From Paenibacillaceae bacterium (GTDB taxonomy: Bacteria; Bacillota; Bacilli; Paenibacillales; NBRC-103111): DNA of 64,000 nucleotides. The stretch covers positions 1 through 64,000 of the forward strand of contig JAQSYI010000042.1 in NCBI GenBank assembly GCA_029256185.1, given 5' to 3'. A program made the position numbers and the translations under genes. Positions within the stretch are counted from its first letter, which is position 1; each line of letters starts with the position of its first letter. Shown in pieces: positions 11,243 through 26,286 of the stretch. Below the pieces are notes generated by a model. It saw only the letters and a list, made by a program, of their open reading frames with translations. It was not told the DNA's origin and ran no database searches.

Positions 11243-11633
11243 GGCGGAGAGCGTGACGGGAGACGCCGAGTCTGCCGCCTGCTCTCCCTATCGGAAAGCC
11301 CCAGTGCCAAGTGCAAGATCAAGAGCCAAGTGCAAGATCAAGGGCTAAAAGCATAACGGGAGTCGCAGAGTCTGCCGCCTGCTCTCCCTATCGGAAAGCC
11401 CCAGAGCCAAGTGCAAGAATCAAGAGCTAAGTGCAAGCCCAAGGGCGGAGAGCGTGACGGGAGACGCAGAGTCTGCCGCCTGCTCTCCCTATCGGAAAGT
11501 CCCAGAGCCAAGTGCAAAATCAAGGGCCAAGTGCAAGATCAAGGGCCAAGTGCAAGATCAAGGGCCAAGTGCAAGACCAAGAGCCGAGAGCATGACGGGA
11601 GCGCCGAGTCTGCCGCCTGCTCTCCCTTTTGGA
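11243..11633. repeat. array of four imperfect 100-base repeats with 19-base tandem units
   Basis: Four related blocks begin near 11243, 11341, 11444 and 11581. Each contains GAGTCTGCCGCCTGCTCTCC, and in copies 1 and 3 an upstream GGAGAGC that pairs with GCTCTCC plus an inner AGAC/GTCT stem. Blocks are separated by short units. At 11510-11585 there are four head-to-tail copies of a 19-base unit (AAGTGCAAGATCAAGGGCC). The small open frames across this stretch follow the repeat and are not believed to be genes. The rest of 10943-11674 holds only the hairpins listed. Confidence 0.85.
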
Positions 11634-13498: not shown

Positions 13499-13753
13499 TT
13501 ATTTTGTCACAGGTGTTGGCATCTCAGAAAGGCAAACATTGCAAACAATTTTTCCTTTGAAGTATGCAACGTTCTCAGCATTGCCACAGAAAATACAAGC
13601 AGGCTCGTATTTCTTCAGCATGATGCGCTCGCCGTCTACATAAATTTCAAGTGCATCCTTTTCCCCGATTCCCAGAGTACGGCGCAACTCGATCGGAATA
13701 ACAACGCGCCCCAGCTCATCAACTTTTCTTACAATACCGGTGGACTTCATCAT
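13499..13753 (-). CDS. abrB: AbrB-family transition-state regulator
   Basis: An 84-residue protein with an N-terminal SpoVT-AbrB swapped-hairpin DNA-binding domain (M-K-S-T-G-I-V-R-K-V-D-E-L-G-R-V-V-I-P, residues 2-20). Unlike B. subtilis AbrB, the C-terminal half carries two C-x-x-C pairs (C53/C56 and C71/C74), suggesting a zinc knuckle. AbrB represses post-exponential genes. ATG 13753 follows GAGGGGA on the minus strand; the frame open to 13816 is an unlikely extension. A TTGACT-N17-TATCAT promoter and a downstream Spo0A box fit the known repression of abrB by Spo0A~P. Confidence 0.88.
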   Translation of the reverse strand: MMKSTGIVRKVDELGRVVIPIELRRTLGIGEKDALEIYVDGERIMLKKYEPACIFCGNAENVAYFKGKIVCNVCLSEMPTPVTK

Positions 13754-13807
13754 AATAGGTATTCCCCTCTCAAATTCTAGTATATCTTGTTTAGCAGAAT
13801 CGTCATC

Positions 13808-13858
13808 TTTCGACATCGTTCATGTCTCCATGATACCAACCATTCCCAAAATAGTCAA
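13808..13858 (-). promoter_or_regulatory. abrB promoter with Spo0A box
   Basis: On the minus strand TTGACT (13853-13858), a 17-base spacer and TATCAT (13830-13835) form a sigma-A promoter. TGTCGAAA (13808-13815) lies just downstream of the expected start site, the arrangement by which Spo0A~P represses abrB in B. subtilis. Confidence 0.65.
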
Positions 13859-14025
13859 CCGTTTTTTTATTAAAAAGATAACCATATGATGGAAATATGA
13901 GGGCTATTTCTTCTGTTTTTCGGGGGGTTCTTGTGAAATGCTGGAATTTGCATATGATATAAAGTAATATGAAGTAATAATATTGGGCCGTATTTCCGAG
14001 AGAATATCAGAGTAAAAACGACTGA

Positions 14026-14079
14026 TTTCGACAAAATACCCCGTTTGTTTTGTCGAATAGTCTGCGGCTAATGTCGAAT
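14026..14079. promoter_or_regulatory. three Spo0A-box matches before the HD gene
   Basis: TTTCGACAAAA (14026-14036, reverse orientation), TTTTGTCGAAT (14048-14058) and AATGTCGAAT (14070-14079) each contain the TGTCGAA core and lie about two helical turns apart, the last one directly before the ribosome binding site. Binding is predicted, not shown. Confidence 0.6.
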
Positions 14080-14093
14080 AGGAGGCGAATGAA

Positions 14094-15377
14094 ATGACAG
14101 GCAGACTGATGGAAGAGAAGGTTTTCAAAGACCCTGTGCACAATTATATTTATGTACAGGACGAGACCGTCTGGGATTTAATCAATGCTGTGGAATTTCA
14201 GCGCCTGCGCCGGATCCGGCAACTGGGCACCTCCTTTCTGACCTTTCATGGTGCTGAACACAGCCGGTTCTCCCATTCTCTCGGGGTCTATGAGATCACC
14301 CGCCGGATCATCTCCCAATTCGAACGAAGCGGCTTTAGCGATTGGCCCAAGGAGGAGCGGCTTTTGTGCCTGTGCGCGGCGCTTCTTCACGATGTAGGGC
14401 ATGGTCCGTTCTCTCATTCCATAGAAAAGGCCTTCGGAACCGACCATGAAATCTGGACCTGCCGGATCGTTTTGGGGGATACAGAGATTAACCGGATCTT
14501 GCGCAAAGCTGATCCTGCCCTTCCGGAGAAGGTGGCCGCTGTTATCTCCAAAACCTATGAGCAAAAAATCGTGGTCAGCCTGATCTCCAGTCAGATGGAT
14601 GCAGACCGGATGGATTATTTGCTCCGCGATGCCTATTTTACCGGAGTTGATTACGGGACCTTCGATATTGAGCGGATTCTGCGGATGGTCCGTCCTCATA
14701 AAGGACACATTGTGTTCAAAGAAAGCGGCATGCATGCGGTGGAGGACTATCTGATGTCCCGCTATCAGATGTATTGGCAGGTTTACTTCCACCCTGTAAC
14801 CCGCAGTGCCGAAATTCTGCTGTACAAGATATTCGCCAGAGCCAAGGCTCTGTATGAGAATGGTCACGCCTTTTCATTCGTTAGCGAACCGGTCACCCGC
14901 TTGTTTCAAGATAAGCTGACAGTGGCGGACTATCTGAAGCTGGATGAGCCGCTGATGCAGGTGGCCTTTACGGAGTGGTCCGGCGACCGGGACCCGGTGC
15001 TCTCCGACCTGTGCTTCCGCTTCATCAACCGGAGGCTGTTCAAATATGTTCCTCTGGAGCGTATGGATGTGCCCTTCTTGGAGCAGATCCGGCAAAGCAT
15101 CAATCAACAAGGCTATGATTCGGCCTATTATATGGAGATTGATTTTCCTGCGGATCTGCCCTATGATGTCTACCGCCCCGGAGAATTAGACGGGAAGCTT
15201 CCGATTCTGCTGCTGGATAACAAGGACCAGTTGTTCGAGATTTCCCGCCGGTCCGAGATCATCCGCTCCATCAGCGGCATCCGGCTGGGGCAGCATCACT
15301 TGTATTTTCCCGGAGAATTGGCGGAGGCCGCCGGTCTGCCCGAAGACCTGCGGCAATTCTTGCGCAACCGCACATGA
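14094..15377 (+). CDS. ywfO: HD-domain phosphohydrolase (YwfO-like)
   Basis: A 427-residue HD-superfamily protein. Metal ligands are visible in A-E-H-S-R-F-S-H (about 54-61), L-L-H-D-V-G-H-G (97-104) and S-Q-M-D-A-D-R-M-D-Y (about 166-175). The SAMHD1-like pattern F-Q-R-L-R-R-I-R-Q-L-G near 35-45 is also present. B. subtilis YwfO-type enzymes act on nucleotides and related Enterococcus proteins are dNTP triphosphohydrolases, so dNTP hydrolysis is the best guess. AGGAGG lies 8 bases before ATG 14094. The gene is divergent from abrB and carries three Spo0A-box matches in its leader. It occupies the place where B. subtilis has metS. Confidence 0.85.
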   Translation: MTGRLMEEKVFKDPVHNYIYVQDETVWDLINAVEFQRLRRIRQLGTSFLTFHGAEHSRFSHSLGVYEITRRIISQFERSGFSDWPKEERLLCLCAALLHDVGHGPFSHSIEKAFGTDHEIWTCRIVLGDTEINRILRKADPALPEKVAAVISKTYEQKIVVSLISSQMDADRMDYLLRDAYFTGVDYGTFDIERILRMVRPHKGHIVFKESGMHAVEDYLMSRYQMYWQVYFHPVTRSAEILLYKIFARAKALYENGHAFSFVSEPVTRLFQDKLTVADYLKLDEPLMQVAFTEWSGDRDPVLSDLCFRFINRRLFKYVPLERMDVPFLEQIRQSINQQGYDSAYYMEIDFPADLPYDVYRPGELDGKLPILLLDNKDQLFEISRRSEIIRSISGIRLGQHHLYFPGELAEAAGLPEDLRQFLRNRT

Positions 15378-25790: not shown

Positions 25791-26174
25791 ATGCTTAAAA
25801 CAATAGCCACATCCCAAGCGCCGGCGGCAATCGGGCCTTATTCCCAGGCAATCGTCTTCGGCAATCTGCTGTTCACATCCGGACAGATTCCCCTGAAGGC
25901 GGACGGACAGCTTGTAGAAGGGGGCATCCGGGAGCAGGCGGAGCAAGTGTTCCGCAACCTGGAGGCAGTGCTTAAGGAAGCGGGAACCGGCTTTGGACAG
26001 GTGGTCAAGGCGACGGTGTTCCTGAAGGATATGGCCCAGTTCCCCGAGCTTAACGAGGTCTATGGCGCTTGGTTCCAAAACCATAAGCCGGCCCGCTCCA
26101 CTGTAGAGGTGGCGCGGCTTCCCAAGGATGTCCTTGTCGAAATTGAATTGATTGCCGCGATAAATGTCGAATAA
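25791..26174 (+). CDS. ridA: RidA-family enamine/imine deaminase (YabJ)
   Basis: A 127-residue chorismate-mutase-like trimeric protein that hydrolyses reactive 2-aminoacrylate. Signature segments are [18 protein letters not shown], the arginine in A-R-S-T-V-E-V (about R104) and the final [10 protein letters not shown] 25791 is chosen for the perfect AGGAGG nine bases upstream; the frame open from 25569 overlaps purR. spoVG follows in the same direction. Confidence 0.95.
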
Positions 26175-26225
26175 GTTTGACTTGCACTAATATTTAAAAA
26201 AATGCTAACTTTTACTCAACAAAAA

Positions 26226-26253
26226 GAAGGAATTTACCAATTGTTGTGGAAAT
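26226..26253 (+). promoter_or_regulatory. sigma-H promoter of spoVG
   Basis: AGGAATT (26228-26234), 14 bases, then GAAAT (26249-26253): the same geometry as the sigma-H promoter of B. subtilis spoVG, including a GTGGAA context at the -10. Confidence 0.75.
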
Positions 26254-26286
26254 ATACAGCAAGTCTTGTTGAGAAGAAGGTGGTGA

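Follow-up and report, generated by a model that had tools for sequence, protein, structure and literature searches.

Are the TGTCGAA sequences between abrB and the adjacent gene for an HD-domain phosphohydrolase binding sites of Spo0A and, if they are, which of the two genes do they serve? The comparison of the window, i.e., the whole stretch of 64,000 nucleotides of Paenibacillaceae DNA that was analysed, with related loci suggests, with a probability of roughly 0.82, that abrB and the HD gene form a divergon under Spo0A control, with Spo0A sites on the side of each gene. In such an arrangement, phosphorylated Spo0A would repress abrB, as in B. subtilis, from a tandem site which lies in the leader shortly after the abrB promoter. 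It would also bind a second cluster, in which tandem and opposed 0A boxes immediately precede the HD gene, and would thereby set the level at which a dNTP triphosphohydrolase is expressed when sporulation begins. Judging from these sites, the HD gene is very probably a new direct target of Spo0A in Paenibacillales, and the open-access literature searched contained no account of its control by Spo0A.

Boxes and promoters of the abrB/HD intergenic region

Exact TGTCGAA cores occur at 13809-13815 (minus strand, the abrB-leader box), 14027-14033 (minus strand, HD-side box 1), 14051-14057 (plus strand, box 2) and 14072-14078 (plus strand, box 3), which confirms in the sequence the positions given by the initial annotation, with three boxes ahead of the HD gene and one in the abrB leader. 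The three HD-side cores start 24 and 21 bases apart, have a total span of 52 bp and sit 16-67 bases 5' of the ATG of the HD gene at 14094. Box 1, which reads TTCGACA on the plus strand and is an element conserved in most of the order, is reversed and makes a 10-bp perfect inverted repeat with the opposed box 2 (starts 24 bp apart), while box 3, at 21 bp from box 2, abuts the Shine-Dalgarno sequence AGGAGG (14080-14085, plus strand). A second plus-strand box at a spacing similar to that of box 3 is present in some relatives (e.g., L026, L029 and L034). At 10 bp from box 1 there is a degenerate half-box (14017-14023, minus strand; AACGACT on the plus strand), which keeps the CGAC core and matches at 4/7 positions.

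The abrB gene (13499-13753, minus strand) encodes an AbrB-family transition-state regulator of 84 aa with MazE/AbrB domain hits above the cut-off, and the looped-hinge helix N-terminal domain is present (TIGR01439, 37 bits against a cut-off of 28.3). Since abrB starts at ATG 13753, which has an RBS upstream and is residue 1 of the AbrB alignment, the box at 13809 belongs to the leader and is outside the coding sequence, at about +9 to +15 of the predicted abrB transcription start. It has a degenerate tandem partner 10 bp off, TGACGAT (13799-13805, minus strand; 5/7 match), in the arrangement TGTCGAA-AGA-TGACGAT. The predicted abrB promoter, TTGACT-N17-TATCAT (13830-13858, minus strand), matches the consensus at 10/12 positions and forms a block which is strongly conserved in the 96 distinct intergenic regions of the family sample. 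The 0A site in the B. subtilis abrB leader is similar in that TGTCGAA and a tandem partner at 10 bp follow the sigma-A abrB promoter, and Spo0A represses B. subtilis abrB through this site (Strauch 1990, as cited in PMC12090719); here, in contrast, the gene divergent from abrB encodes a predicted dNTPase and has its own 0A cluster. Within the spacer of the abrB promoter (13834-13848), the motifs TGGGA and TGGTA, both of the TGGNA type, are strongly conserved and form a probable site of AbrB self-binding.

Chance, selection and conservation across Paenibacillales

As the window contains 12 exact TGTCGAA cores and 6.2 are expected from shuffling, single cores mean little. A tight triple is a different matter, as the initial annotation had rightly argued: three of 12 random cores within 54 bp are expected only about 5e-4 times by our own arithmetic. 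Genome-wide box counts were obtained by pattern searches, and the exact opposed pair TTCGACA-N4-34-TGTCGAA was found in only two places of the 8.57-Mb assembly, which belongs to the Paenibacillus group: here and upstream of spo0A. In the family sample, the 96 distinct regions between abrB and the HD gene contain 314 exact boxes against 6.4 expected, with at least one in every region, and opposed boxes no more than 60 bp apart occur in 78/96, where 0.01 would be expected, counts which are not phylogenetically independent due to the shared ancestry of the loci. In the same loci, box density is 9.64/kb within the intergenic region and 0.23/kb in the flanks. Since the rest of the intergenic sequence aligns poorly (the mean column identity of five close relatives is no higher than 58%), selection is the simplest explanation of the boxes. 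Chance or local base composition, to which the recurrence of 7-mers (12 in the window versus 6.2 expected) and the loss of the three-box cluster in the closest relatives might point, is left with a nearly negligible probability by the excess of boxes and opposed pairs and by flanks that stay at background density. Secondary box peaks, 200-400 bp and 3.2-4.2 kb away from the start of the HD gene, were set aside after their contexts were read, as they are largely coding sequence.

The abrB and HD genes are adjacent and divergent in 110/110 family loci, and the divergent pair is also found in representatives of the order's other families that have the HD gene. Among the 166 distinct intergenic regions on which the order-wide counts are based, the exact abrB-leader box is kept in 162, at least one exact HD-side box is present in 157, and 124 have at least three boxes. 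The HD-side box is missing in 9/166, mainly in small or odd lineages (family f3, one member of f7, a 1.4-Mb genome, Saccharibacillus and its kin), with further losses in L016 and in L003, a close relative of the window. Conservation of the boxes upstream of orthologues, which had been named as a check on the proposal, stands at the level of the order on both the HD and the abrB side, with the architecture kept, and fails for the exact three-box cluster in the two nearest relatives, of which L002 has one exact HD-side box (TTCGACA) and L003 has none (TTCGACG alone). No exact HD-side box was found in 20 upstream regions of orthologues from other families of the class (one of these regions was truncated), and in two loci of family f18, outside the order, abrB neighbours the HD gene and keeps its leader box, with nothing on the HD side. 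Because orthologues outside the order are without exact HD-side boxes, these sites look like an innovation of this order. Family f8 is mostly without the HD gene; in G110, G118, G122 and G125, Spo0A is present and a close orthologue of the HD dNTPase is absent.

Spo0A as the probable binding protein and the rival readings

Spo0A is encoded in the genome of the window and in 121/121 order genomes sampled, and the recognition helix of this genome's protein, TTPSRVERAIRHAIEVAW, has one change (A to P) relative to the B. subtilis-type helix of 1lq1. In Spo0A dimers, as seen in the 1lq1 complex, a head-to-tail arrangement is expected, and same-strand partners at 10 bp fit it. Around the 197 exact HD-side TTCGACA boxes, same-strand partners matching at least 5/7 positions peak at exactly -10 (80 boxes) and +10 (65 boxes), and the abrB-leader box has a partner of at least 5/7 at exactly -10 in 105/162 regions; in the window itself, the 10-bp partner matches at 4/7 on the HD side and at 5/7 on the abrB side. 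The nearest opposed boxes are spaced 12, 22-23, 33-34 or 43 bp (R = 0.87 at a period of 10.75 bp), and the box spacing is altered between lineages by whole helical turns. It is already known that P. polymyxa Spo0A bound a TTCGACA-carrying promoter by EMSA (PMC10782996), and that in Clostridioides the exact core is predictive of Spo0A binding, for which G2, C4 and G5 are needed (PMC3485338). The marks of a Spo0A-regulon member were found at this locus, namely a 0A core (as defined in PMC3485338) in the promoter region, 10-bp tandem half-sites, the Spo0A helix and conservation of the sites. With high confidence we infer from the sequence that Spo0A binds on both sides of the region, and Spo0A boxes before a gene for an HD nucleotide phosphohydrolase, as originally proposed, are the best-supported reading, given the order-wide conservation, the 10-bp partners, the phasing and a Spo0A with a DNA-binding domain that matches 1lq1.

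A related arrangement is conserved across the family upstream of spo0A, where TTCGACAGAAGGAATTT...TGTCGAA is found (L001 922-954, L155-L183); this block resembles a sigma-H-like promoter with opposed 0A boxes on either side of it. It shares the opposed TTCGACA...TGTCGAA with the HD-gene boxes of the same genomes, but its boxes flank a sigma-H-like AGGAATTT element, and visual inspection revealed no element of this kind at the HD gene.

As both genes share the region, the HD-side boxes might instead serve abrB, by looping to the leader site and tightening abrB repression with the HD gene uninvolved. For B. subtilis, both tetramers of Spo0A and looping have been suggested (PMC12090719), and the distance from the HD-side boxes to the abrB box is moderately phased (R = 0.42 at 10.5 bp). 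We nevertheless regard this as improbable, since the phasing of the box pairs is far tighter (R = 0.87), the HD-side boxes hug the HD start (median 72 bp, MAD 12) and are placed more loosely relative to the abrB box (MAD 20), and the two f18 loci keep the abrB leader box without HD-side boxes. The tie of the sites to Spo0A is drawn at the level of sequence only, so a different regulator could be imagined to recognise the TGTCGAA-like sites here, and there is an extra conserved element, TTTGGAA, about 22 bp upstream of TTCGACA in the HD-side intergenic regions L002-L111, which could be an AbrB contact. Such a regulator is very improbable, as these genomes have the same core at the classical targets of Spo0A, abrB and spo0A, and as the boxes show the 10-bp tandem arrangement.

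Slightly less probable still is that the opposed boxes form an RNA stem-loop in the HD leader which controls translation. The RNA of the window folds into a strong hairpin just before the Shine-Dalgarno sequence (-21.2 kcal/mol, z = -1.9), but the loop length shifts in whole helical turns, which an RNA would not need, the bases flanking the cores pair no more than shuffled ones overall, and the same-strand 10-bp partners would be left unexplained. The hairpin was rejected due to these loop lengths, the pairing of the flanks at shuffle level and an Rfam search for an HD-leader RNA, which gave no meaningful match.

The HD enzyme, its direction of control and sporulation

The HD gene (14094-15377, plus strand) encodes a predicted HD-domain dNTP triphosphohydrolase of 427 aa, similar to EF1143 and SAMHD1 (PDB 2o6i match; PF01966 and PF19276). 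The protein aligns with EF1143 of Enterococcus faecalis (PDB 2o6i) over residues 4-412 with E = 2.5e-128, and its H61, H99, D100 and D171 match the EF1143 metal ligands H66, H110, D111 and D183. EF1143 is a demonstrated dGTP-activated dNTP triphosphohydrolase (PMC8177086). By its sequence, the HD protein belongs over its full length to the type of EF1143 (PDB 2o6i, 3irh and 4lrl), the comparison being with EF1143 itself, and the earlier assignment of the gene to the nucleotide phosphohydrolases is borne out by the full-length alignment and the four shared metal ligands. Unlike 20 orthologues from other orders, the HD gene here has upstream 0A boxes.

For the window, the placement of the boxes gives Spo0A about an even chance of being a repressor of the HD gene, while activation is the weaker possibility, though a real one. 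Repression is favoured because the boxes lie between the start codon and the best sigma-A promoter candidate, a weak and uncertain match from the promoter scan (TTGTGA-N16-TATGAT, 13931-13958, plus strand), and also because 94/127 loci leave less than 60 bp between the last box and the start codon, which is too short for a promoter. In a combined -35/-10 scan, 79/127 best candidates were upstream of all boxes, with scores no better than those of shuffles; a search for a sigma-A -10 common to all loci and anchored on TTCGACA found none, and no conserved HD promoter or -10 position was found across the order. Since no promoter position is conserved and the best scores do not exceed those of shuffles, the direction of control is not readable from these scans.

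In genus g32, a Paenibacillus clade, the two tandem boxes read TTCGACA-N3-(T)RCGACA and have a -10-like TATA after them, at +28, and the matches to the spoIIGA promoter have a -10 offset of 28 bp in 27/27 cases. Because the TATA-type -10 of g32 has the offset of the spoIIGA matches, its geometry, with 28 bp from box 1 to the -10, is approximately that of a spoIIG-type, Spo0A-activated promoter and favours activation in this clade. In contrast, the 28-bp geometry was not found in most of the family of the window or in the window itself, where no -10 lies at +28 from 14017 or 14027.

In B. subtilis, SirA is a Spo0A-induced inhibitor of replication (PMC5295017). In the order, SirA was detected in 1/61 genomes by a weak match, where a homologue could be too diverged to detect, and Sda in 56/61; four f8 genomes are without both SirA and a close HD orthologue. 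Because the order is almost entirely without detectable SirA, the dNTPase may, speculatively, serve a role similar to that of SirA. Both would be Spo0A-controlled products able to limit replication at sporulation entry, but SirA binds DnaA, whereas the HD enzyme would act on dNTP pools. We consider it rather unlikely that Paenibacillales tie the start of sporulation to their dNTP pools through a Spo0A-controlled dNTPase, which would thereby restrict or time the replication of the chromosome, a solution unlike that of SirA.

The link between Spo0A and the dNTPase appears to be order-wide, and no earlier description of it was found in the open-access literature. If it is true, the genes directly regulated by Spo0A would include one for a nucleotide-pool enzyme throughout an order of spore-forming bacteria, with a concrete, mutable site for the link, and the coordination of replication with sporulation would become testable in bacteria without detectable SirA. 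Additionally, the phased, lineage-variable 0A arrangement would represent a natural series on how box geometry sets activation or repression.

Elsewhere in the window, at 26135-26171 and about 26220-26255, a ridA/yabJ-like gene with two TGTCGAA cores at its 3' end precedes a spoVG-like gene with a sigma-H-like AGAAGGAATTT element, and tandem arrays (a 100-bp unit in three copies and a 19-bp unit in four) occur at 11243-11592, between a yabA-like gene and a methyltransferase gene.
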